Below, one piece after another: positions 14,172 to 26,528 of a stretch of DNA of 41,687 nt. Numbering within the stretch: the first letter of the stretch is position 1; the number at the start of each line of letters is the position of its first letter. Source of the DNA: an uncultured Elusimicrobia bacterium (lineage in GTDB: Bacteria; Elusimicrobiota; Elusimicrobia; Elusimicrobiales; UBA9959); NCBI GenBank assembly GCA_903889965.1, contig CAISZM010000034.1, positions 1-41,687 of the forward strand. Direction: 5' to 3'. The position numbers and the translations under genes are program-made. Below the pieces are notes generated by a model. It had not been told where the DNA came from. It was given only the letters and a program-made list of their open reading frames with translations, and did no database searches.

Positions 14172-15602
14172 ATGAGCCATGACGTGATCATCGTTGGCGC
14201 CGGCATAACCGGGGCCGCCATAGCCCGGGAGCTCTCGCGCTACAGACTGAAGATCCTCATACTTGAAAAGGAAGCCGAACCCGCTTTCGGCGTTTCCAAG
14301 TCCAACAGCGGGATAATCCACGCGGGCACGCAGAATCCCCCCACCTCACTTAAAGGCTGGCTTTGTGTCGAAGGCAACCGCCTGATGCGCGAGGAGTTGT
14401 CCGGGGACCTCGGCCTGAATTTTGTGCAATGCGGGCAGCTGATAGTAGTGTTCGACCTGGCTGACCTGCCGGAATTGGAAAACATAAAGACGGAGGGAGA
14501 GGCGCTGGGAGTGAAGGGCCTTGAAATCGTGGACCGGGCCTGGCTTGATAAGAACGAGCCCAATCTCGGGCCGGACGTTAAAGCCGCCCTTTACGTCCCT
14601 TCGGCCGGGATCATAAGTCCCTACCGTTTTGTCTACGCCCTCATCGAGAACGCCGTGAAGAACGGAGCGGAACTGAAGGTTTTGCATAAGGTGACAGCGA
14701 TACGTGTTAAGGGAAAAGAAGGTTTCGAGGTGGTGGCCGGAGGCGAGGTTTATCGAGCGAGGTACCTGGTGAACGCGGCCGGGCTTTACGCCGACGAGAT
14801 CTCCGCCATGGCCGGCGCCGCAACTTTTAAAATAACCCCGCGCAAAGGCGAAGAGTACCTGCTGGACAAAAAACGCGAGCATATCGCCAGACACATTGTT
14901 TTTCCTCTCCCCTCCAAGACCTCCAAGGGCATACTCATCATAAAGACCTCCGACGGCAACCCGATGATAGGGCCTACCGCGCACGATATCGGTGACAAGG
15001 AGGACCTGTCAACCTCCGACGAAGGCCTAGCGGAAGTGCTGGCCGGGGCGCGCCGCATGATGCCTTCCATTTCCGGCGGCGACATCATCGCTTATTTCGC
15101 GGGCCTCCGCCCCGTTTCCGGCAAGGACTTCGTGATACGCCACGAGGATCCCGTACCCGGGCTGGTCAATGTCGCGGGCATACAGTCCCCCGGCCTCACC
15201 TCCGCCCCGGCTATCGCCGTCATGGCGGCGGATATCCTGCGGAAGCACGGCCTGGCGCTTGAGCCCAGGGAGGAATTCCAGCGAGCCCGGCCCCGCCCGG
15301 CGCATTTGTTCCAGATACCCCCCGAGGAAACCCGCCGCCTGATAGGCAAAAATCCTTCGTACGGAGACATAGTCTGCCGCTGCGAGCTTGTTTCGGCGCA
15401 GGAGGTTCGCGACGCCGTCAAGCGCGGAGCGCGCACGCTTGACGGCGTCAAGTTCCGCACCAGGGCCCAGGCCGGCCGCTGCCACGGCGGGTTCTGCACC
15501 ACCAGGATCATGAAGATCATGCAGGAGGAACTGGGGCTGCCCGTCACCGCCATAACCAAACGGGGACCCGGTTCGGAGTTGATAAAGGAAGAACGCGAAT
15601 GA
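14172..15602 (+). CDS. GlpA-like FAD-dependent dehydrogenase with C-terminal BFD-type [2Fe-2S] domain
   Basis: A 476-residue flavoprotein of the DAO/glycerol-3-phosphate dehydrogenase family. FAD is bound by VGAGITGAAIARELSR near 6-21. The C-terminal part (about 400-460) is a BFD-like Fe-S domain: DIVCRCELV gives C-x-C and GRCHGGFC gives C-x4-C, the four cluster ligands. Together with the two flavin/cysteine genes downstream it matches the GlpA-oxidoreductase-DUF1667 gene sets of anaerobes. Oxidation of glycerol 3-phosphate or a related 2-hydroxyacid is likely, but the substrate cannot be fixed from sequence. The stop overlaps the next gene by ATGA. Confidence 0.88.
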   Translation: MSHDVIIVGAGITGAAIARELSRYRLKILILEKEAEPAFGVSKSNSGIIHAGTQNPPTSLKGWLCVEGNRLMREELSGDLGLNFVQCGQLIVVFDLADLPELENIKTEGEALGVKGLEIVDRAWLDKNEPNLGPDVKAALYVPSAGIISPYRFVYALIENAVKNGAELKVLHKVTAIRVKGKEGFEVVAGGEVYRARYLVNAAGLYADEISAMAGAATFKITPRKGEEYLLDKKREHIARHIVFPLPSKTSKGILIIKTSDGNPMIGPTAHDIGDKEDLSTSDEGLAEVLAGARRMMPSISGGDIIAYFAGLRPVSGKDFVIRHEDPVPGLVNVAGIQSPGLTSAPAIAVMAADILRKHGLALEPREEFQRARPRPAHLFQIPPEETRRLIGKNPSYGDIVCRCELVSAQEVRDAVKRGARTLDGVKFRTRAQAGRCHGGFCTTRIMKIMQEELGLPVTAITKRGPGSELIKEERE

Positions 15603-15832
15603 ACCTCATCTATTTACGCCCGACCGCGTCTAAAGCCCGCAAGTTCATGAAGAAAAAACTGCGCGGCGGCGAAGGCGCCTCCATATACGACATAGAGGAC
15701 GGCGATTGCTGCCTGGCCCCGGCCCTGTCAGGGCGCCGCGATTATATGCTGACTTTCCTTAACGATGTTTCCCCGGAAATGCTGGCGTTCATATACCGCA
15801 GCGGAATGTGGGCGGGGATGAGCCTGAACTGA
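15599..15832 (+). CDS. Small protein of unknown function in flavoprotein operon
   Basis: A 77-residue protein, not recognised. The ATGA overlap with the GlpA-like gene and its place inside the operon support its being real. It starts with MNLIYLRPTASKARKF, has a basic stretch KFMKKKLRGG, a central acidic DIEDGDCC, and ends in MWAGMSLN. No signal peptide or membrane helix is visible, so it is likely cytosolic. It could be a small accessory to the dehydrogenase, perhaps of a DUF4911-like type, but that comparison is weak. Confidence 0.65.
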   Translation: MNLIYLRPTASKARKFMKKKLRGGEGASIYDIEDGDCCLAPALSGRRDYMLTFLNDVSPEMLAFIYRSGMWAGMSLN

Positions 15833-15833
15833 C

Positions 15834-15949
15834 GGATTTCAGGATTTAAGATTCAAGATTATAAGATTGAAGATTGTCAGCTCGAAGTATTGAAGATTAT
15901 CAGATTTAAGATTGAAGGTTAAAGATTTGGAAAAGTACTGAAGACTTTA
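15834..15949. repeat. AT-rich degenerate AAGATT repeat tract inside an operon
   Basis: About ten GATT cores occur 7-11 nt apart in variants of AAGATTnA (for example GGATTTAAGATTCAAGATT and AGATTTAAGATTGAAGG). Its base composition is far more AT-rich than the flanks. It fills the gap between the 77-aa gene and the next oxidoreductase, holds no gene of its own, and is not CRISPR-like because there are no distinct spacers. Confidence 0.75.
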
Positions 15950-15956
15950 GAGCGAT

Positions 15957-16940
15957 ATGGAAACAAGAGATCTGATTATCGTGGGAGGCGGACCGGCCGG
16001 CATGGCGGCGGCTTTGGCCGCGCGCGCGGCCGGTGTCGGGGACGTGCTCCTTCTCGAACGCGACCAGCACCTGGGCGGAATACTGAATCAATGCATACAC
16101 CCCGGGTTCGGCCTGCATCATTTTAAGGCGGAACTGACCGGTCCTGAATACGCCGACCGTTTCGTAGAGCTGGTAAAAGGGGATCCCGGCATAGAGGTCC
16201 GCCTCCGTTCTTTCGCGGTAAAACTCACGAAAGACAGGGAGCTCTCTTTCCTGCGTCCGGGCGCCCTTGAAGAGGTTAAAGCCCGGGCCGTTATACTGGC
16301 GACCGGCTGCCGCGAACGCACCCGTGAAATGATACTCATTCCCGGCTCCCGCCCGGCCGGTGTTTATCCCGCCGGTCTCGCCCAGAAGATGGTCAATATT
16401 GAAGGCTGGATACCCGGCAGGGAAGCCGTTATAATCGGCTCCGGGGACATAGGCCTGATAATGGCGCGCCGCATGGCGCTTGAAGGCGTTAAGGTGAAAG
16501 CGGTGGTGGAGATACAGAAAACCAGCCGCGGGCTGGTCCGCAACGTCGTGCAGTGCCTTGAGGATTTCGGCATCCCGCTTTACTTCCAGCACAGGGTGGC
16601 GGCTATACGCGGCCGCGACCGCGTCGAGAGCGTCGACGTGGTCAGGGTGGACGACGGGCTTAAGGATATACCCGGTTCGGGTTTCAAGATAACCTGCGAC
16701 ACGGCGCTGATATCGGTGGGGCTTATCCCTGAAAACGAACTGCTTGAGATGGCTGGCGCCGAAATAGACCGCAGAACCAACACCCCGGTAGCCGCGGAAG
16801 TGAATCTGACCTCGATTCCCGGAGTTTTCGCCTGCGGCAACGCCTGCAAGGTCTACGACCTGGTGGACTGGGTCACGCGCGACAGCGGCGTGGCCGGCAG
16901 GATGGCCGCGGAATATCTTGCCGGGGGCAAAGCTGTTTAG
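15957..16940 (+). CDS. NAD(P)/FAD-dependent oxidoreductase of the GlpA/DUF1667 cluster
   Basis: A 327-residue two-dinucleotide-fold flavoprotein. FAD is bound by IVGGGPAGMAAALAARAAG near 7-25, NAD(P) by IIGSGDIGLIMARR near 157-170, and the closing flavin motif is GVFACGNACKVYDLVD near 287-302. The thioredoxin reductase CxxC active site is absent, so it is not a disulfide reductase; it likely passes electrons between the GlpA-like subunit and NAD(P) or another carrier. It lies between the AAGATT tract and the DUF1667 gene, which starts 24 nt after it. Only a weak ribosome binding site (TAGAGCG) precedes the ATG. Confidence 0.88.
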   Translation: METRDLIIVGGGPAGMAAALAARAAGVGDVLLLERDQHLGGILNQCIHPGFGLHHFKAELTGPEYADRFVELVKGDPGIEVRLRSFAVKLTKDRELSFLRPGALEEVKARAVILATGCRERTREMILIPGSRPAGVYPAGLAQKMVNIEGWIPGREAVIIGSGDIGLIMARRMALEGVKVKAVVEIQKTSRGLVRNVVQCLEDFGIPLYFQHRVAAIRGRDRVESVDVVRVDDGLKDIPGSGFKITCDTALISVGLIPENELLEMAGAEIDRRTNTPVAAEVNLTSIPGVFACGNACKVYDLVDWVTRDSGVAGRMAAEYLAGGKAV

Positions 16941-16964
16941 CGGCTAAGCAAGTTCGGGAATATT

Positions 16965-17327
16965 ATGAAAAGAATTATGACCTGCATAGAATGCCCTCAG
17001 GGCTGCAGGCTGGAAATAGAGACTGACGGTTCCCGCGTAGCAGGCGTAACGGGCCAGAAGTGCCCCCGCGGCGCGAAATACGCCCGCCAGGAAATAGAAT
17101 CCCCCATGCGCACCCTCACGACCTCGGTGCTGACGCGCGGGCTGGAATTAAAAATGCTGCCGGTACGCACCTCCCGGCCCATACCCAAGGGCAGTATTTT
17201 TGAGGCTATGGAAGCGGTGAAAAGGATAGTGGTGACTTCGCCGGTAAAGGCCGGCGCCGTGGTAGCGCCGAACTTCCTGGGCCTGGGGGCGGACCTGGTG
17301 GCCTGCCGGAGTATAGCTAAACTTTGA
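16965..17327 (+). CDS. DUF1667 domain protein
   Basis: A 120-residue protein of the DUF1667 family. The N-terminus has two cysteine pairs, CIECPQGC and KCPRGAKYA, resembling a small Fe-S or zinc site like that of molybdoenzyme N-termini; the remainder (TLTTSVLTRG, PVRTSRPIPKG) matches the family core. DUF1667 proteins typically follow GlpA-like and NAD/FAD oxidoreductase genes, as here, and are thought to be a third subunit. It ends the operon and is convergent with a PAS sensor gene 43 nt away, with no clear terminator between. Confidence 0.9.
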   Translation: MKRIMTCIECPQGCRLEIETDGSRVAGVTGQKCPRGAKYARQEIESPMRTLTTSVLTRGLELKMLPVRTSRPIPKGSIFEAMEAVKRIVVTSPVKAGAVVAPNFLGLGADLVACRSIAKL

Positions 17328-18518: not shown

Positions 18519-20486
18519 ATGCTACTGGTCCTGCTTTCTTTTGTGATCCTCCTTGCAAGCGCCGTTGCCGCGCTTTGTCTTGGCGGACGCCCGTCGCGGG
18601 CGCAGGACGCGGGCGCTTACGGCGCGGTGGCGGCTTCCATCGCCGGCCTCATACCGTCCGTGCAAACGCTGTTGTCGGGGAGGACGGAAACTCTTTCTCT
18701 CCCCTGGCCTGTTCCGCTCGGGTCCTTTTCCCTTACGCTTGACCCGCTTTCGGCTTTCTTCCTGGTCCCGGTCTTCACGCTGACCGCCCTCTCGGCCGTC
18801 TACGGAGTGGATTATCTGAAGGCCTACTCGGGCAGGAAGCCGCTGGGCCTGGTCTGGGCCGCCTTCAATACGCTCACCGCCGCCATGGCGCTGGTGTTCA
18901 CCTCCTCGAACGCCGTGCTGTTCATGCTGGGCTGGGAGCTGATGGCCGCCGCCTCCTTCATCCTGGTGCTGTTCGAACACGAAAAAGCTCAGACGCGAAA
19001 AGCCGCGTTCATATACCTGGCCGCCGGCGGGGCCGGGGCGCTGCTGCTGATGGCGGTTTTTGCGCTGCTCGGATCGGGTTCGGCCACGCTTGATTTTTCA
19101 TCGTTTCACTCCCCTTCCCGCGCCGCAGCTTCGGCCGTTTTCCTCCTGGCCCTTTGCGGTTTCGGGCTGAAGGCCGGTTTCATCCCGCTGCACGTCTGGC
19201 TGCCCGAGGCTCACCCCGCCGCCCCCAGCCAGGTTTCCGCGGTGATGAGCGGCGTGATGATAAAGACGGGCATCTATGGGATCATAAGGATACTGGGTTT
19301 CCTGCGGCCCTGGGAAGAGTGGTGGGGCTGGGCGCTTCTTATTATCGGCGCCGGCTCCTGCGTGCTGGGCGCTCTTTTCGCCCTGGCGCAGCACGAATTG
19401 AAAAGGGTGCTGGCATATTCGAGCATCGAGAATATAGGTATTATACTGCTGGCTGCGGGGCTTGGCGTCATCGGCGTAACCCGCGGGGCGCCTGAACTGG
19501 CCGCCCTGGCCTTCGCCGGGGCGCTGCTTCATGTTTTCAACCATTCACTTTTCAAGGGCCTTCTTTTTATGGGCGCGGGCTCCGTGCTGCACGGGGCGGG
19601 AACGGCGGAGCTGGAGGCCCTGGGCGGGCTCTCCAAACGTATGCGCGCTTCCGCCGTGTTTTTCCTGGCCGGTTCCGCCGCCGCCTGCGCGCTTCCGCCC
19701 TTTAACGGTCTTGCTGGAGAATTTCTTATATACGCGGGCGCGCTGCGGGGGATCAATTTCCCTGCTTCCGTGGCGCTCGCGGGGGTAGCGGCCGGGCTGG
19801 TCCTGGCGGTGGCCGGGGTGCTCGCGGCGGCCGCCTTCGTCCGCGCCGGAGGGACTGTCTTCCTGGGGGAGCCGCGCTCGGAACGCGCCGCCGGGGCGCA
19901 TGAGTCCGGGCCTCTCATGTTGTTCGCTATGGGCGCGCTCGCGCTGCTTTGCCTGGTGTCCGGCCTTGCCGCTCCTTTCCTGCTTGGGCCCCTTGCTTTC
20001 GCCGTAAGTTCCGGCTTTGGTCCGCTTTACGGCTTTACCGCCGGTATCCAGGGCGCGGCGCCGCTGGTTTATGTTTCCGCCGGCGGCCTTCTGCTGCTTG
20101 CCATGGCGGCCATTGCCGCGGCCAAGAGGAAGGTTTTCCTGCGCGGCAAAAAACCGGCGGAAGGCGTGACCTGGGACTGCGGCTACGCCGTCCCCACGGC
20201 CCGTATGCAGTACGGCGCCTCCTCTTTCTCCCAGCCGCTTACGGATTTTTTCCAGCCCATACTCCGCAAGATAGGCCAGTACCCCGTTATCTCGGAATAT
20301 TTCCCCGGCAAGGCCTCCTTCTCGCGCGAGGCGCAGGCGGTTTTTTACAATGAACTTTACGCCCCCGCGGCTTTCCGCATAAGGGAGCTGGCGTACAGGT
20401 TCAGCTGGCTGCAGCACGGCCGCCTTCAGATCTATATAATGTACATCGTGGTCACGCTCATGGGGCTTCTGCTATGGAAATTGTAA
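18519..20486 (+). CDS. Ehr/Hyf-type antiporter-like subunit (HyfB/NuoL family)
   Basis: A 655-residue membrane protein with many helices, homologous to HyfB, MrpD and NuoL/M/N ion-pumping subunits. Conserved pumping residues are seen: Glu in LFMLGWELMAAASF, Lys in GFGLKAGFIPLHVWLPEAH, and Lys in ELKRVLAYSSIENIG. The C-terminal cytosolic element with TWDCGYAVPTARMQY and FSQPLTDFF is typical of HyfB proteins. It is first in a six-gene complex and overlaps the next gene by 13 nt. It would move protons or sodium ions, driven by redox work in the peripheral arm. No ribosome binding site is evident before the ATG. Confidence 0.9.
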   Translation: MLLVLLSFVILLASAVAALCLGGRPSRAQDAGAYGAVAASIAGLIPSVQTLLSGRTETLSLPWPVPLGSFSLTLDPLSAFFLVPVFTLTALSAVYGVDYLKAYSGRKPLGLVWAAFNTLTAAMALVFTSSNAVLFMLGWELMAAASFILVLFEHEKAQTRKAAFIYLAAGGAGALLLMAVFALLGSGSATLDFSSFHSPSRAAASAVFLLALCGFGLKAGFIPLHVWLPEAHPAAPSQVSAVMSGVMIKTGIYGIIRILGFLRPWEEWWGWALLIIGAGSCVLGALFALAQHELKRVLAYSSIENIGIILLAAGLGVIGVTRGAPELAALAFAGALLHVFNHSLFKGLLFMGAGSVLHGAGTAELEALGGLSKRMRASAVFFLAGSAAACALPPFNGLAGEFLIYAGALRGINFPASVALAGVAAGLVLAVAGVLAAAAFVRAGGTVFLGEPRSERAAGAHESGPLMLFAMGALALLCLVSGLAAPFLLGPLAFAVSSGFGPLYGFTAGIQGAAPLVYVSAGGLLLLAMAAIAAAKRKVFLRGKKPAEGVTWDCGYAVPTARMQYGASSFSQPLTDFFQPILRKIGQYPVISEYFPGKASFSREAQAVFYNELYAPAAFRIRELAYRFSWLQHGRLQIYIMYIVVTLMGLLLWKL

Positions 20487-21400
20487 AGCCTATTTCCCAG
20501 TACCTGGCGGTAATGATCCTTTCGCCGCTCCTGCCCGGAGTGATCAACCGCGTAAAAGCGTTCTTCGCGGGGCGCCAGGGCCCCCCGCTTCTCCAGCTCT
20601 ACTACGACCTGTATAAGCTTTTCAATAAGACCCCCGTTTACAGCCGCACCACTACCTGGGTGTTCAGGGCCGGGCCGGTGGCGGGCGTGGCCGCTCTGGT
20701 TACGGCGCTGGCGGTCCTGCCTTTCGCCGGCAGGCCCTCTTTCCTGGCTTTCGACGGCGACTTTATTTTCATCATCTACTTGCTGGGCCTGGCAAGGTTC
20801 GCCACCGTGCTGGCCGCGCTGGACACGGGGTCGGCTTTCGAGGGAATGGGCTCAAGCCGCGAGATGCAGTTCGCGGTCTTTTCCGAACCGGCTTTTTTCC
20901 TGGGGCTGGCGGCGCTGGCGCGTATTACCGGGCATACTTCCCTGCCGGGGATGTTCGCCGCTCTCACCGGGGATACTTGGCGCGCGGCCGCACCTGTGCT
21001 GGCGCTGCTGACGGTCTCGTTCTTTATAGTTCTGCTGGCCGAAAACTCGCGTGTGCCGGCAGACGATCCGAATACCCACCTGGAGCTGACCATGATACAC
21101 GAGGCGATGGCGCTGGACCATAGCGGCCCGGATCTCGGCTACATCCTTTACGGGGCTTCGCTTAAGTTGTGGCTCTTCGGCTCGCTGATAGGCTCGATGC
21201 TGCTGCCGCATTCCGGCTCCTGGGCCTGCGACTGCGGTCTATTCGTGCTGCTGATGCTCTGCGTGGCCGTAGGGGTAGGATTGGTCGAATCTGTGATGGC
21301 CCGCCTGCGCCTCATCAATGTGCCGTATATGCTCATTACGGCCTTTGCCTTCTCGGCGCTGGCGCTTATTTTTCAAATGGGAAGGCCGGTGAAAGGATGA
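20474..21400 (+). CDS. Ehr/Hyf-type subunit C (NuoH family)
   Basis: A 308-residue integral membrane protein of the NuoH/HyfC family, which joins the peripheral redox arm to the membrane arm. Typical sequence includes GRQGPPLLQLYYDLYKLF near 32-50, FEGMGSSREMQF near 118-129, and the acidic loop AENSRVPADDPNTHLELTMIHEA near 188-212. About eight helices are visible. The start overlaps the upstream gene by 13 nt, implying coupled translation. Confidence 0.92.
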   Translation: MEIVKPISQYLAVMILSPLLPGVINRVKAFFAGRQGPPLLQLYYDLYKLFNKTPVYSRTTTWVFRAGPVAGVAALVTALAVLPFAGRPSFLAFDGDFIFIIYLLGLARFATVLAALDTGSAFEGMGSSREMQFAVFSEPAFFLGLAALARITGHTSLPGMFAALTGDTWRAAAPVLALLTVSFFIVLLAENSRVPADDPNTHLELTMIHEAMALDHSGPDLGYILYGASLKLWLFGSLIGSMLLPHSGSWACDCGLFVLLMLCVAVGVGLVESVMARLRLINVPYMLITAFAFSALALIFQMGRPVKG

Positions 21401-21420
21401 CAGGCCGGGAAAGAAACTAA

Positions 21421-22086
21421 ATGCATACCTTCGCGGAACTTACTATCGTTTTCATCGTGCTGCTGGACCTTTCGCTGGCAGTGGCGGGCTCTCTTTCCTA
21501 CTGCATCAAGCTGGTGGCCCTGCAGGGCGTCGTGGCCGGGCTGCTGCCGCTGCTGGCCGCCTCGGGAGCGCCGCACGCGAGGGCGGTGCTATTTGCAGCG
21601 GTGATCGTCGGGCTGAAGGGCGCGGTTTTCCCCTGGCTCCTTATGCGGGCGCGCGACAAGTCCGGGGCGCGCAAGGATGTGGAGCCGCTGATCAGCTATC
21701 CGGCCTCCATACTGCTCTGCCTCGGGGCCTTTGTCGCAGCGTCCTGGCTGGGCTCGCGCCTTCCCCTCCCCGAGACGCATGTCGCGTGGATAGTGCCGGC
21801 TTCACTGGCCACTATATTTACCGGGTTCCTGCTGATAACCACGCGCAGCAAGGCTATCTCGCAGGTGCTGGGCTATCTAGTGATAGAGAACGGGATCTAT
21901 ATCTTCGGCCTGGCACTCTTCGTTGAGCAGCCGATGATGGTGGAACTTGCTATACTCCTGGACGTGTTCGTGGCGGTGTTCGTGATGGGCATAGCCATCT
22001 TCCATATAAGCAGGGAGTTCGACCACATCGATACGGCGGAACTCTCGGAGCTCAACGACTGGCGCCGAGGGGAGTACGGCAAATGA
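21421..22086 (+). CDS. Ehr/Hyf-type subunit E (HyfE, NuoK-like)
   Basis: A 221-residue membrane protein matching HyfE, whose C-terminal part is NuoK-like. Features are about seven helices, a conserved acidic residue in GYLVIENGIYIFGLAL, and a cytosolic end with DHIDTAELSELNDW. It starts 20 nt after the subunit C gene and its stop overlaps the next gene (ATGA). It belongs to the membrane arm. Confidence 0.88.
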   Translation: MHTFAELTIVFIVLLDLSLAVAGSLSYCIKLVALQGVVAGLLPLLAASGAPHARAVLFAAVIVGLKGAVFPWLLMRARDKSGARKDVEPLISYPASILLCLGAFVAASWLGSRLPLPETHVAWIVPASLATIFTGFLLITTRSKAISQVLGYLVIENGIYIFGLALFVEQPMMVELAILLDVFVAVFVMGIAIFHISREFDHIDTAELSELNDWRRGEYGK

Positions 22087-23564
22087 TAAAATCACTGTTG
22101 CTGCTGCCGCTGGCCTCCGGAGTTATGGCTTTTCTTATGCGCGGCGACGCTCCGCGCCGCCAGTTGCTTCTCTGGACAGCCCGCCTGCATTTTCTTCTTA
22201 CGGCGCTCGTTATCTACACGCGGTTGGCCTCCGGAGAGCAGGCCGAGGTTTCCGCCTGGTTCGGTTACGATTCCCTGGGAGTTTTTTTTCTGGGGATCAC
22301 CTCGCTGCTGTTCCTGGGCGCGTCGCATTATGCCGTCGCCTACCTGGCTTCGGAGAAGCGCGACCCCGGCGAGGACTTCGGTGACGGGTCTATTTTTACT
22401 AACGCGCCCGAGGCAGTGTTCACCGGCTGCCTGCTCCTCTTCCTCGCTTCGATGACCGCCGTGACGGCCAGCCGGCACATGGGCCTTCTGTGGGCTTCGG
22501 TGGAGGCCACCACCCTTTTGAGCGCGCCGCTCATATATTTCCACCGCCACAGGCGTTCGCTTGAGGCCACGTGGAAGTACCTGCTGATCTGCTCGGTCGG
22601 CATAGCCCTGGCCCTGATGGGTAATTTGTTCCTGGGCGCGGCAGGCCTCAAGACCGGCGCCGGCCTGGACGTTGGCGGCCTGCTGGCCAAGGCCGCGCTC
22701 CTGGACAAGCCACTGCTGAAGGCCGCCTTTTTATTTCTCTTCGTAGGTTATGGCACCAAGATGGGCATCTCCCCCTTCCATACCTGGCTGCCTGACGCGC
22801 ATAGCGAGGCCCCGGCCGTGGTTTCCGCCCTGCTTTCCGGTGCGCTGCTCAACTGCGCCTTCCTTGGGATACTTCGGGCGAACGCCGTTTGCGCGCGGGC
22901 CGGCCTGGCCGATTTTACCGGGGGAATACTGGTGATCTTCGGTCTTTTTTCCCTGGTGACCGCGGCTTTGTTCATGCTGGGGCAGAGGGATTATAAGCGC
23001 ATGCTGGCCTACTCGAGCATCGAGCATATGGGCATACTGGCCCTCGGCGCAGGCCTGGGCGGCGGCGCGCTATTCGCGTCCATGCTGGGAGCGCTCAGCC
23101 ATTCCCTGACCAAGGCCGGGCTGTTCTTCACTTCCGGGTCGGTGCTGGCCTCCGAAAAGACGAAGCGTATATCCGAAGTGAGCGGCCTTTGGCGCCGCGC
23201 TCCCCGCACCGCCGCGCTCTGGCTTGCCGGATTCTTTCTCATTACCGGCATGCCGCCCTCCGGAATATTCCTTTCCAAGTTCCTTATACTTAAAGAGGCT
23301 ATAGCCCTGAAGGACTACTGGCTGGCCGGCGCTTACCTGTTCTTCCTCGCGCTGCTTTTCGCCGGTATGGCCCGGGTTTTTATCGGCATGACCTTCGGCG
23401 AGCGCGCGGCAAAGCCCGGGGAAAAGCCCTACGCGGAGCCGGGCGGCATGCTGGCCCCGGCGGCGGCGTTCTTCATCTGCGTTATACTGGCCGGCCTTTT
23501 TATCCCGGGCTGGCTGAACGCCCTGATGAAGGCGGCCGCCCTTAACGCGGCGGGAGGGATATGA
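22083..23564 (+). CDS. Ehr/Hyf-type antiporter-like subunit (HyfF/NuoL family)
   Basis: A 493-residue second antiporter-like subunit, shorter than HyfB. Conserved elements are Glu in LLWASVEATTLLSAPL, Lys in GYGTKMGISPFHTWLPDAH and Lys in DYKRMLAYSSIEHMG. It starts by ATGA overlap with HyfE and overlaps the large-subunit gene at its end. Two antiporter-like subunits suggest at least two ion-translocation channels. Confidence 0.9.
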   Translation: MIKSLLLLPLASGVMAFLMRGDAPRRQLLLWTARLHFLLTALVIYTRLASGEQAEVSAWFGYDSLGVFFLGITSLLFLGASHYAVAYLASEKRDPGEDFGDGSIFTNAPEAVFTGCLLLFLASMTAVTASRHMGLLWASVEATTLLSAPLIYFHRHRRSLEATWKYLLICSVGIALALMGNLFLGAAGLKTGAGLDVGGLLAKAALLDKPLLKAAFLFLFVGYGTKMGISPFHTWLPDAHSEAPAVVSALLSGALLNCAFLGILRANAVCARAGLADFTGGILVIFGLFSLVTAALFMLGQRDYKRMLAYSSIEHMGILALGAGLGGGALFASMLGALSHSLTKAGLFFTSGSVLASEKTKRISEVSGLWRRAPRTAALWLAGFFLITGMPPSGIFLSKFLILKEAIALKDYWLAGAYLFFLALLFAGMARVFIGMTFGERAAKPGEKPYAEPGGMLAPAAAFFICVILAGLFIPGWLNALMKAAALNAAGGI

Positions 23565-25012
23565 AAATAAACCATCTCTCCAGTTTCGACTTCGGCGCGT
23601 CCGATATGGATTCGGGGATATTTTTCGAGACGGCCGCCTCGCGCCTGTCAGCCGGCGGCAGGGCCGTGGCTTATTTCGCGCTGCCCGATGGCGCTTCTTC
23701 CCGGCTTGTTATGTGCGTGGCCTTCGACCGGGAAGGCCGCCTCGAGGTCTATTCGACCCTTGTCCGCCGGCCTTTCCGCTCCCTCACTCCCTCCTTCCCG
23801 CAGCTCCACCTCTTCGAACGGGAGATCTACGAGCAGAGCGGCCTTAAGCCGGAGGGGCATCCCTGGCTTAAGCCGATACGCTTCAACACTCCCGGCTCGG
23901 TGCCGGGGGTGGCTGATTATTTTAAAGTGCACGGCGTGCAGGTGCACGAGGTGGCCGTCGGACCGGTTCACGCTGGAGTTATAGAGCCCGGCCATTTCCG
24001 CTTCCAGTGCCACGGCGAGCACGTTTTTCACCTCGAGATCATGCTGGGTTACCAGCACCGCGGCGTTGAAAAACGGTTTATAGGCGGCCCGGACGGCCGC
24101 TCCATACATTATGCCGAGACGCTGGCAGGAGACACAAGCATAGGCCACGGCTGGGCTTACTGCGGCGCGATCGAGGCGCTGGCCGGGGTAAATCCCCCTG
24201 CGCGGGCGCAGGTCCTGCGCGGGCTGATGCTGGAACTTGAGCGCATGGCCAACCACACGGGCGACCTTGGCGCGCTTGCGGGCGACGTGGCGTTCCTGCC
24301 CACCGCCTCTTTTTGCGGACGCCTTCGCGGGGACCTCCTTAATATGTCCGCGCTGGTCTGCGGCAACCGCTTCGGAAGGAATATGTTGAAGCCCGGAGGG
24401 GTTAATTTCGACCTCGACCAGGAACTCGTTAAGGAACTTAAACTGCGCCTCGAGAATACTTTGCGCGACGCGGAGAATGCCGTGGCCCTGCTTTGGGAAA
24501 CAGGCTCGGTCATCGAAAGGTTCGAAGGTACGGGCGTACTTGTGAAGGAAGCGGCAGAAGGACTGGGGATAGTCGGCCCCGCGGCGAGGGCTTCCGGCGT
24601 AGGCCTGGACACCCGCCGCAACTTCTCCTGCGGGCCCTACGAGGATTTTACCATGTCCGTATCGGGCAGCGGCGACGTTTACTCGCGCGCCTACGTGCGC
24701 TGGCTGGAGATACAGAAGTCCGCCGAGCTCGTGCGCGGCTGGCTGGACGCCCTGCCCGAAGGGCGGATCGAGGCTGAATGCGGGGAGCTTAAGCCCGACA
24801 GCGCGGCCGTTTCGCTGGTAGAGGGCTGGCGCGGCCAGATCTGCCATTTCGCCGTTACAGGGCGGGACGGGAAGCTGCGGCATTACAAGGTAGTGGACCC
24901 GTCGTTCCACAACTGGCAGGCCTTGGCGATGGCGCTCCGGAACGGGGAGATATCCGATTTCCCCGTCTGCAACAAGAGCTTTAACCTTTCCTATTGCGGA
25001 AGGGATCTTTAG
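23561..25012 (+). CDS. Ehr catalytic-type large subunit, NuoCD/HyfG-like, lacking Ni-Fe ligands
   Basis: A 483-residue protein with an N-terminal NuoC-like part (EREIYEQSGLKPEGHPWLKP near 88-107) fused to a NuoD/HyfG-like part. In [NiFe] hydrogenases of group 4 the metal centre is held by a CGxC motif after ER and a DPCxxC motif at the C-terminus. Here these read ETLAGDTSIGH near 185 and VVDPSFHNWQ near 444, so all four Cys are replaced by Ala, Thr, Ser and Asn. The C-terminal FPVCNKSFNLSYCGRDL resembles the NuoD end and shows no protease-processed tail. This marks an energy-converting hydrogenase-related (Ehr) complex that cannot make H2. The fold and the contacts to the small subunit are otherwise intact. 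Confidence 0.9.
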   Translation: MKINHLSSFDFGASDMDSGIFFETAASRLSAGGRAVAYFALPDGASSRLVMCVAFDREGRLEVYSTLVRRPFRSLTPSFPQLHLFEREIYEQSGLKPEGHPWLKPIRFNTPGSVPGVADYFKVHGVQVHEVAVGPVHAGVIEPGHFRFQCHGEHVFHLEIMLGYQHRGVEKRFIGGPDGRSIHYAETLAGDTSIGHGWAYCGAIEALAGVNPPARAQVLRGLMLELERMANHTGDLGALAGDVAFLPTASFCGRLRGDLLNMSALVCGNRFGRNMLKPGGVNFDLDQELVKELKLRLENTLRDAENAVALLWETGSVIERFEGTGVLVKEAAEGLGIVGPAARASGVGLDTRRNFSCGPYEDFTMSVSGSGDVYSRAYVRWLEIQKSAELVRGWLDALPEGRIEAECGELKPDSAAVSLVEGWRGQICHFAVTGRDGKLRHYKVVDPSFHNWQALAMALRNGEISDFPVCNKSFNLSYCGRDL

Positions 25013-25052
25013 GACGTAAATAGAAATAGTCCTGTTACAGGCGTTTGAAATT

Positions 25053-25790
25053 ATGATCAAGTCGATAATCGCTAGATTAAAACAGGGTTACCGGACCATG
25101 CCCTTCCCTCCGGCGCACATGAACCTGCCTGCGCGCTACCTGGGCCTTCCCAGGATCAAGTCCCCCGAACTTGCGGGAGCGGCCGCCGCCTGCCCTTACG
25201 GCGCTATTTCTTCGGGGCCGGAAGCCGGGCTGGATATGGGGCGCTGCATTTTCTGCGGTGAGTGCGCCAAGGCGGCGCCCGGCGCGGTGGAGTTCACGAA
25301 GGATTACCGGCTTTGCGCGCGAAGCCCCGGCGGCCTGATAGTGCGGGACAAGGATTTTAAGAGGGCAGAGGCGCTCAAGGGAGAGCTGAGGCGCATTTTC
25401 AGGCGCTCCTTCCGGCTGCGGGTTGTCAGCGCCGGAGGCTGCAACGGCTGCGAGTCCGACTGCAATGTGCTGCAGACGGTAGGGTTCGACCTGGGCCGGT
25501 TCGGAGTTCAGTTCACGGCTTCGCCCCGGCACGCCGACGGTATCCTCATTACCGGCCCGGTGGCGAGGAATATGGAATTGGCGCTGCGCAAGACTTATGC
25601 GGCGGTTTCTTCTCCGAAGGTGGTTATCGCCTGCGGGGCCTGCGCGATAGCCGGCGGGCCTTATGCGGGGCACGAAGAATGCGCCGGCATACCCGCCGAC
25701 ATACCCGTCGACCTCTATATCCCGGGCTGCCCCCCCCATCCGTTGACCATCCTGGACGGCATACTGCGCCTCATCGGCCGGATCGACTGA
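25053..25790 (+). CDS. Ehr small subunit (NuoB/HyfI-like) with fused single-cluster ferredoxin domain
   Basis: A 245-residue protein. The first 120 residues are a ferredoxin-like (HyfH-type) domain in which one cluster is left: AACPYGAI supplies one Cys and CIFCGEC three, while the position expected to supply the fourth Cys of the other cluster is Ala (AKAAPGAV). The rest is NuoB/HyfI-like with the proximal [4Fe-4S] ligands in GGCNGCES, ACGAC and PGCPPHP. Separate HyfH and HyfI genes are normally present, so this is a fusion. It is the last gene of the operon, 40 nt after the large subunit. Confidence 0.88.
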   Translation: MIKSIIARLKQGYRTMPFPPAHMNLPARYLGLPRIKSPELAGAAAACPYGAISSGPEAGLDMGRCIFCGECAKAAPGAVEFTKDYRLCARSPGGLIVRDKDFKRAEALKGELRRIFRRSFRLRVVSAGGCNGCESDCNVLQTVGFDLGRFGVQFTASPRHADGILITGPVARNMELALRKTYAAVSSPKVVIACGACAIAGGPYAGHEECAGIPADIPVDLYIPGCPPHPLTILDGILRLIGRID

Positions 25791-25904: not shown

Positions 25905-26528
25905 ATGAAAATTCTTGTGGTTTATTACTCGATGTACGGGCATGTTTACCAGATGGCGGAAGCCGCAGTTGAAGGAGCAAAGTCCGTTCCCGGCGCGGAG
26001 GTGTCGCTGAAGCGGGTGCCGGAAACGCTGCCGCACGAGATCCTGAAAAGCATGGGGGCCGTGGATACCCAGAAGGCGCAGGCCTGGGTGCAGGTCTGCA
26101 CTACGGATGATCTGGCGGCCGCGGACGCCATAATCTTCGGAACGCCTACGCGCTTCGGCAACATGTGCGGCCAGATGCGCCAGTTCCTGGATTCTACCGG
26201 CGGGCTCTGGTTAAAAGGCGCGCTGACAGGCAAGATCGGCAGCGTCATGGTCAGTTCCGCCACGCAGCACGGAGGGCAGGAATCTACGATACTTTCGTTC
26301 CATACCACCCTGCTGCACCACGGCATGATAATAGCGGGGCTCCCGTACAGCTTCCAGGGGCAGACCGGGTTTTCGGAAGTTTCCGGCGGCTCGCCTTACG
26401 GCGCGACTACTATCGCCGGGGGGCATGGTGAAAGGATGCCCAGCAAGAACGAGCTTGAAGCGGCCCGCTATCAGGGCAGATATGTCACCCGGCTGGCGGA
26501 GAGACTGGCCGGTTTTAAGGTGGGATAG
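25905..26528 (+). CDS. wrbA: NAD(P)H:quinone oxidoreductase WrbA
   Basis: A 207-residue flavodoxin-like protein of the WrbA family, which binds FMN and reduces quinones by two electrons. The FMN phosphate loop is [11 protein letters not shown] near 7-17; [10 protein letters not shown] near 79-88, [10 protein letters not shown] near 118-127 and the C-terminal [12 protein letters not shown] near 176 are characteristic. A strong TGGAGGA ribosome binding site precedes the ATG. It is monocistronic with a terminator shared with the convergent peptidase gene. It probably protects against oxidative damage from quinones. Confidence 0.95.

Follow-up and report, generated by a model that had tools for sequence, protein, structure and literature searches.

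Introduction

In passages of one paper, Ehr complexes are described as lacking the NiFe-binding residues, with a suspected role in linking redox reactions of the cytoplasm to the translocation of charge (PMC6349859), and passages of other papers report versions of them from bacteria of the candidate phyla radiation (PMC7304191) and from comammox bacteria (PMC10284858). According to one passage, the role of the Geobacter complex had never been investigated as of 2020 (PMC7894505), and in a passage of a paper from 2025 it is still described as a complex of unknown function (PMC12342949). One Desulfotomaculum EhrL is reported, again in a passage, to have kept all four cysteines (PMC3569383). Here, we describe an Ehr complex encoded by six genes at positions 18519-25790 of a 41,687-nucleotide stretch of DNA from an uncultured Elusimicrobia bacterium (contig CAISZM010000034.1 of assembly GCA_903889965.1). 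This stretch, hereafter the window, is the entire contig C34 of a genome of 2.24 Mb in 87 contigs, with an estimated completeness of 90.2%. Ehr is a known class; as far as the literature was searched, what is new here is a variant of its iron-sulfur wiring and a residue-level description of its pocket.

The Ehr of Geobacter sulfurreducens is encoded by seven genes (GSU0739-45). Our comparison used Geomonas and Geobacter loci from our scan, not the G. sulfurreducens sequence itself, and the subunits of these loci match those of the window, at 52-55% for the large subunit EhrL. Two features differ: the window has one NuoL-like copy where Geomonas locus L132 has two, and the cluster N6a, absent from the small subunit EhrS of the window, is kept in Geomonas L128 and L132 and mostly lost in Geobacter argillaceus L147. 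The formate hydrogenlyase and hydrogenase 4 of E. coli, with their large subunits HycE and HyfG, provide the best structural and profile match and share both the NuoC-NuoD fusion and the order of the membrane genes. In contrast to Hyc and Hyf, the window lacks the NiFe cysteines, a HyfA/HycB-like gene and the C-terminal maturation tail, and it fuses the counterparts of HyfH and HyfI, which are separate in E. coli. Mbh and Mbx belong to the same superfamily, but their scores are clearly lower than that of HycE, and the operon in the window has no small Mrp-type subunits. Complex I, considered both as the Nuo set of the same genome and as E. coli Nuo, has homologues of the core subunits D, B, H, K, L and N in common with Ehr, whereas the Ehr operon is without NuoA and NuoEFG, the quinone-binding His and Tyr are replaced, and the two stand far apart on a tree.

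Results

The six Ehr genes lie head to tail and near-contiguously on the forward strand of the open reading frame (ORF) map, and we name them after Geobacter usage (EhrA-1, EhrC, EhrL and EhrS, as they appear in PMC7894505). The first (18519-20486) encodes an EhrA-type antiporter-like subunit of 655 amino acids (aa) resembling NuoL and HyfB (PF00361, 4.4e-49; NCBIfam hydrogenase 4 subunit B, 5.7e-171, below cut-off). It is followed by a NuoH/HyfC-like membrane subunit of 308 aa (20474-21400; PF00146, 2.3e-32), an EhrC-type HyfE/NuoK-like subunit of 221 aa (21421-22086; NCBIfam hydrogenase 4 membrane subunit, 2.2e-15, below cut-off) and a NuoN/HyfF-like antiporter subunit of 493 aa (22083-23564; PF00361, 2.7e-50). 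The last two genes encode EhrL, a NuoC-NuoD fusion of 483 aa (23561-25012; PF00346 and PF00329; phmmer match to 7z0s_E, 1.5e-39; also placed by tree and fold), and EhrS, a ferredoxin-type domain fused to a NuoB-like domain, 245 aa long (25053-25790; PF01058, 3.4e-25; NCBIfam PRK12387, formate hydrogenlyase iron-sulfur subunit, over residues 1-91, 2e-06, below cut-off). NCBIfam scores under the curated cut-offs are expected for a diverged relative. The Pfam and NCBIfam identities confirm six genes in Hyf/Nuo order at these coordinates, as an earlier note made from the sequence alone had read them, and the order matches hyfB-C-E-F-G-(H)I of E. coli, minus hyfA and hyfD. The complex is intact and not decaying. 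In a comparison with one close relative (L020; loci in our set carry the prefix L), which covered all genes except the HyfE-like one (thus L, H, N, CD and IB), the ratios of nonsynonymous to synonymous substitution (dN/dS) are 0.08-0.14, at dS of 0.8-1.15. Named relatives from a GTDB scan, among them Elusimicrobia bacterium GWB2_63_22 with an EhrL that is 83% identical, assign the genome to Elusimicrobiota.

We aligned EhrL with HycE, HyfG, the true hydrogenase of the same genome and NuoD. At the N-terminal CxxC place, the window's ETLAGDTSIGH stands opposite HycE DRVCGICGFAH, such that C-G-I-C (columns C241 and C244 of HycE) is replaced by A-G-D-T (residues 189-192; 24125-24136, forward strand), as the earlier note had proposed. 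That note had placed the second site at DPSFHN (residues 446-451; 24896-24913, forward strand), a largely conserved motif that lies outside the Cys site. Alignments to HycE exclude it, because DPSFHN stands opposite HycE AATYAN, 26-31 residues upstream of the real C-terminal site. The true place is S-Y-C-G (residues 477-480; 24989-25000, forward strand), within the C-terminal NKSFNLSYCGRDL. Here, the last 11 residues of EhrL, SFNLSYCGRDL, align with HycE SLDPCYSCTDR and with AIDPCMSCTDR of the own-genome hydrogenase, which in turn aligns with SLDPVMGDVDR of Thermus thermophilus Nqo4. The C-terminal ligand positions are occupied by Ser477 and Gly480, and Cys479 falls in between, off register. 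The claim that all four NiFe cysteines are replaced holds even after the second site is moved, and the alignments place no other Cys at the ligand positions. EhrL has neither of the two NiFe-binding CxxC motifs by which group 4 [NiFe] hydrogenases are recognised.

The same pattern extends across the class. We extracted 147 large subunits and removed three (L093, L094 and L095) that have the hydrogenase cysteines and fall outside Ehr on the tree, leaving 144, none of which has the four-Cys set. The column of HycE C241 reads A in 113, S in 17, C in 11 and D in 3, and that of C244 reads T in 117, S in 14, A in 10, N in 2 and V in 1, never Cys. At the C531 and C534 columns, Ser and Gly, respectively, are found in 143/143 (L037 is cut by a contig end), and a motif N[KR]S...SY.G.D is found near the C-terminus in 143 of the 144. 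Because 78 of these sequences came from a scan in which DFP..NKS was one of two search patterns, the cleaner test of the motif is a set of 41 found by whole-protein search in the phylum. This set was drawn from the loci selected for retrieval rather than from all phylum hits, and it lies outside the window's clade (24 members, at least 70% identical and all of the window's genus). It comprises 39 sequences from other genera plus L038 and L039, which are divergent Ehr from the same genus. N471, K472, S473, F474, S477, Y478, G480 and D482 are each present in 41/41, and residue 191 is Asp in 38 of them and Glu in the other 3.

Cys479 lies within the former CxxC, and Asp191 and Ser477 are potential ligands, which raises the possibility that Ehr is a hydrogenase with unusual metal ligands (Ser, Cys479 or Asp). 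Yet the position of Cys479 is variable across the 41 (C18, A13, S6, P4), and the chain of Ehr large subunits stops at DL or DR, with no maturation tail. Of 340 genomes of the phylum, 82 were scored as having Ehr on the basis of a best hit at E <= 1e-60; 58 of the 82 are of high quality (at least 90% complete, at most 5% contamination), and 21 of these 58 have no HypD match over cut-off, so that Ehr can do without NiFe maturation. We regard a hydrogenase with such ligands as extremely improbable.

Nor does the pocket resemble that of complex I. In the alignment to Nqo4, within its first block, which has no gaps, His38 and Tyr87, which we take to be the quinone-binding residues of NuoD/Nqo4, stand opposite Ile141 and Gly190 of EhrL. 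Ile and Gly occupy these positions in 144/144 Ehr, whereas His and Tyr are retained in NuoCD of E. coli and in the NuoD of the window's genome. With neither the NiFe cysteines nor the quinone His and Tyr, the Ehr pocket is, judged from its aligned residues, neither a NiFe site nor a canonical complex I quinone site. This bears on the alternative that Ehr is a ferredoxin (or flavodoxin):menaquinone oxidoreductase, in effect a complex I without NuoEFG. Some forms of complex I that lack NuoEFG do act as such oxidoreductases, the fold is that of complex I, and the genome is likely to have a quinone pool, because it contains both a UbiA prenyltransferase match over cut-off and a Nuo operon. Against this stands the replacement of both NuoD headgroup residues in every Ehr. 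UbiA is also unmatched in 4 of the 58 high-quality Ehr genomes and weak in a fifth (5.4e-4), two of these five being from one family, but this argument counts for little, because incompleteness alone predicts a few misses. On balance, we consider a menaquinone oxidoreductase unlikely.

The phylogeny places the complex within Ehr. Our tree of 134 rows (126 Ehr, HycE, HyfG, two NuoD and four other hydrogenase-type sequences, with the window's clade thinned to 7 of its 24 intact members) was built by a quick method without bootstrap. All 126 Ehr rows, including the window, Geobacter and Geomonas, fall on one branch with a Shimodaira-Hasegawa-like approximate likelihood ratio test (SH-aLRT) value of 100; HycE and HyfG are adjacent and NuoD is apart. 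The sister relation of Ehr to HycE/HyfG is less certain than the Ehr clade itself, because long branches meet there. A profile of 18 Ehr scores HycE at 330 bits, MbhL (6cfw_L) at 228 and MbxL (6u8y_L) at 142; the large subunit of Mbx has a partial CxxC. The predicted fold of EhrL (mean predicted local distance difference test score, pLDDT, 82) has HycE as its best structural match, with a template modelling (TM) score of 0.82. The tree, the missing ligand cysteines, the HycE-like fold and the profile match all support the assignment to Ehr made in the earlier note, which we regard as near certain, and EhrL lies inside neither the true hydrogenases nor NuoD. Within Ehr, 113 rows including the window form class A, 12 form class B, and L133_1 stands alone. 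Ehr is found in many phyla of bacteria: the 77 named loci of our set represent 15 named phyla, with 7 loci lacking a phylum. Three contigs (L075, L080 and L133) contain two complete or near-complete Ehr operons each, which point in divergent directions in L080.

The earlier note had overlooked that the last gene, encoding EhrS, is a fusion of a ferredoxin domain to NuoB with an incomplete set of cysteines. Numbering the eight ferredoxin-domain cysteines C1 to C8, we take N6a to be bound by C1-C3 plus C8 and N6b by C4-C7, as in complex I structures. Aligned to the HycF/HycG and HyfH/HyfI columns, Cys47, Cys65, Cys68 and Cys71 of EhrS (25191-25265, forward strand) form one complete [4Fe-4S] set of the N6b type. 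The N6a set is replaced, and N6b and N2 are kept. Both the own-genome NuoI and a ferredoxin-type ORF beside the own-genome hydrogenase keep all eight, so that in this genome the loss of N6a is specific to Ehr.

Loss of clusters recurs across the class. We aligned 142 small subunits and left out the hydrogenase loci L093-L095, two sequences at contig ends (L080_1 and L149) and one split over two frames (L172), leaving 136. N6a, N6b and N2 are all complete in 83 of these, and 3 more have three of the four N6a cysteines. N6a alone is lost, with the rest complete, in 30; L103 and L147 are additional mixed cases. This census, read from the alignment with a slack of 1-2 columns for C1 and C2, compares with a regular-expression count of 34 N6a losses with C5-C7 kept (the differing loci are L103, L147, L151 and L160). 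Both N6a and N6b are lost in 14: 11 of class B, which have no ferredoxin domain, and L171, L173 and L175, which retain a Cys-poor ferredoxin-type shell. N2 is kept in 132, lost in 3 (L102, L154 and L156) and half lost in L148. N6a is absent from 24/24 members of the window's clade, and nearby genera of the same family show both states (N6a absent in L056 and L059, present in L057 and L058). Mapped on the tree, there are at least 8 changes in N6a (over 108 class A rows), 2 in N6b and 4 in N2, counts that are rough because many forks are weakly supported. A literature search of limited depth found no description of cluster loss in Ehr.

Two variants stand out. In class B (L082-L092 and L039), the ferredoxin domain is absent from all 11 of the 11 EhrS read, which leaves N2 as the only predicted cluster, and no other CxxCxxCxxxC ORF was found near Ehr in the six class B loci inspected. 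In the N2-less EhrS, PGCPP has become PGWPP with both ferredoxin clusters kept; these come from metagenome-assembled genomes of Planctomycetales, Opitutae and Verrucomicrobiia.

Charged residues of the putative pump that are common to Hyf or Nuo are, by alignment, kept in nearly all Ehr, namely E140, K218, K346 and E401 of the NuoL-like, E141, K226 and K344 of the NuoN-like, E138 and E204 of the NuoH-like, and E156 and E175 of the HyfE-like subunit. With the NuoL and NuoN genes separated for counting, the NuoL-like subunit (143 Ehr sequences) has E140 in 141/141, K218, H338, H342 and K346 in 143/143 and E401 in 142/143, and the NuoN-like subunit has K165, K226 and K344 in 137/137 and E141 in 134/137. 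The NuoH-like subunit has E138, D197, E204 and E210, each in 127/127, together with a His specific to Ehr, H202 (127/127), at a position that is Glu in Hyf and NuoH, and the HyfE-like subunit has E156 in 123/125, E175 in 124/125 and D181 in 125/125.

A probable regulator gene recurs beside Ehr outside the window's clade. It encodes a fusion of about 235 aa of a helix-turn-helix (HTH) domain, HTH_17, to PTS_EIIA_2, a PtsN-like domain of the phosphotransferase system (PTS), exemplified by L073:3389-4093 (forward strand) and with homologues in 62 loci. Of the class A loci outside the window's clade, 71 could be assessed; 36 of these have it on the same strand, no more than 300 bp before the first Ehr gene, and 10 have it inside the operon ahead of the NuoH-like gene, so that it is in or next to the operon in 46 of the 71; it is elsewhere in L147 and lacking in 24. 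It was found in 0/15 loci of the window's clade and 0/10 class B loci, and the window's own genome has no match. The phosphorylatable His is recovered by pattern in 48 of the 62 and by eye in about 10 more. From this gene arrangement, the HTH-EIIA protein is likely to regulate Ehr, and a literature search of limited depth found no description of an EIIA-type regulator beside Ehr.

EIIA-Ntr controls K+ transport in other bacteria, and an EIIA-Ntr-like gene in or beside many operons could therefore point to Ehr being mainly an Mrp-like ion transporter whose redox parts are vestigial or regulatory. That every cluster is absent somewhere, while the pump residues stay, would fit such a transporter. 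However, the retention of N2 in nearly all EhrS and the invariant pocket residues suggest chemistry, and we consider a mainly transporting role very unlikely.

The remainder of the genome and the neighbourhood of the operon were considered for redox partners. The earlier note had reported no maturation genes, formate dehydrogenase or NuoEFG nearby, and this stands for the locus: among the 28 ORFs of the window, Pfam recognised no maturation gene and no formate dehydrogenase, the latter not having been searched for in the rest of the genome, and neither NuoA nor NuoEFG is in the Ehr operon. Beyond the locus the picture differs. Contig C40 carries a Nuo operon, and all ten subunits tested there (A to I and L) were identified. 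The genome thus does have NuoEFG, but as part of this other operon, which includes a NuoD of its own. A true group 4 [NiFe] hydrogenase operon is on another contig (L018, G000:C16, 8437-16287), with CGIC and CMSC motifs, antiporter-like subunits and a large subunit nearest MbhL. HypD, the only maturation gene searched for, is on contig C7 and is accounted for by this hydrogenase. The Nuo and hydrogenase operons exclude the idea that Ehr is the genome's only complex I-like machine. The neighbours of 116 Ehr loci outside the window's clade could be read over stretches that are limited and differ in length; within these, no partner family of iron-sulfur or flavin type occurs in four or more loci, consistent with the earlier suggestion that partners are elsewhere or soluble. 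The recurrent enzyme families seen by eye were glutamate dehydrogenase-like (6 loci) and phosphoenolpyruvate carboxykinase-like (4 loci).

Upstream of Ehr in the window is a triad of a GlpA-like protein (DAO plus BFD domains), an FAD/NAD oxidoreductase and a DUF1667 protein (14172-17327, forward strand). We surveyed it in 18 loci of the clade, L020-L037, of which L021, L027, L031 and L034 have too little contig. It is upstream of Ehr in 13 of the 14 assessable loci (in L035, just the DUF1667 gene and the final part of the FAD gene are visible) and absent from L037. Outside the clade, one of 40 additional loci of the phylum has it (L059, with GlpA at the edge of the stretch). Among 80 loci of the named scan, it was seen in 2, one from the window's clade (L096) and one (L098) on the same contig as L059, of a neighbouring genus, where it is downstream of Ehr. 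Near-absence outside the clade rules out the triad as proof of Ehr function, although it could possibly be an electron source for Ehr. Downstream of the operon is a WrbA-type NAD(P)H:quinone oxidoreductase (25905-26528, forward strand), which is near Ehr in some relatives and is not part of the complex.

The triad is one of the observations behind the idea that Ehr runs in reverse, using the ion-motive force to make reduced ferredoxin with electrons from an NADH-linked flavoprotein, formate or glycerol-3-phosphate. Passages of the Geobacter study report all Ehr subunits as more abundant in formate-grown than in hydrogen-containing cultures and suggest a role in reverse electron transport (PMC7894505). 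However, the near-restriction of the triad to one clade can be explained by general synteny, as 8 of the 18 loci have PepF as well, and no formate dehydrogenase was recognised in the window. Reverse operation therefore seems quite unlikely to us.

Discussion

We give about an even chance to Ehr being an ion pump that is driven by redox chemistry, fed by a soluble donor of low potential and discharging to an acceptor that is neither H2-linked nor a canonical quinone. A donor such as ferredoxin would dock on the ferredoxin domain of EhrS, and electrons would pass from N6b to N2, the two clusters predicted for the window, and on to the pocket at the interface of EhrL and EhrS, where hydrogenases hold the NiFe centre. 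There they may reduce some substrate, and the four membrane subunits would use the energy to translocate H+ or Na+, a coupling suggested by the conserved pump residues. With N6a lost in the window's lineage, the donor would have to deliver straight to N6b. The earlier note had proposed a ferredoxin-fed ion pump; the pump residues and the Fe-S input domain support a pump of this kind, but its donor and acceptor are as conjectural as before.

Several points weigh against a redox-driven pump of this kind. Its donor, acceptor and ion are all inferred. Several Ehr lack N6b or N2, which is hard to reconcile with a single common wire, and even within the window's genus two genomes have other types of Ehr, one keeping N6a (L038) and one of class B (L039). 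The model of EhrL gives the fold only and not the geometry of the pocket, with residues 479-483 and 105-164 at pLDDT below 50. The authors of the Geobacter proteomics study interpret their data, in a passage, as possibly connecting Ehr with the formation of H2 from formate (PMC7894505). Finally, within the phylum there is a positive association between Ehr and HypD (37/58 versus 40/133), which probably reflects shared ancestry.

A broader reading is that Ehr may form a third kind of catalyst within the complex I superfamily, with a pocket of its own (GD ... NKSF[ND]LSYxGxD at the C-terminus), a wire dispensable enough for different lineages to have lost N6a, both N6a and N6b, or N2, input delivered at the pocket by a soluble reactant or in a non-redox form, and PTS-Ntr-type control in many phyla. 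This is speculative, and we would give it a small chance.

For the family as a whole, the census yields points that can be tested, namely the invariant pocket of neither the NiFe nor the quinone type, the reduction of the Fe-S wire to a minimum and the EIIA-type regulator gene that recurs beside Ehr. Forms of EhrS pared down to N2 only, or without N2, are in effect natural mutants, and they could show whether Ehr requires electrons from outside.

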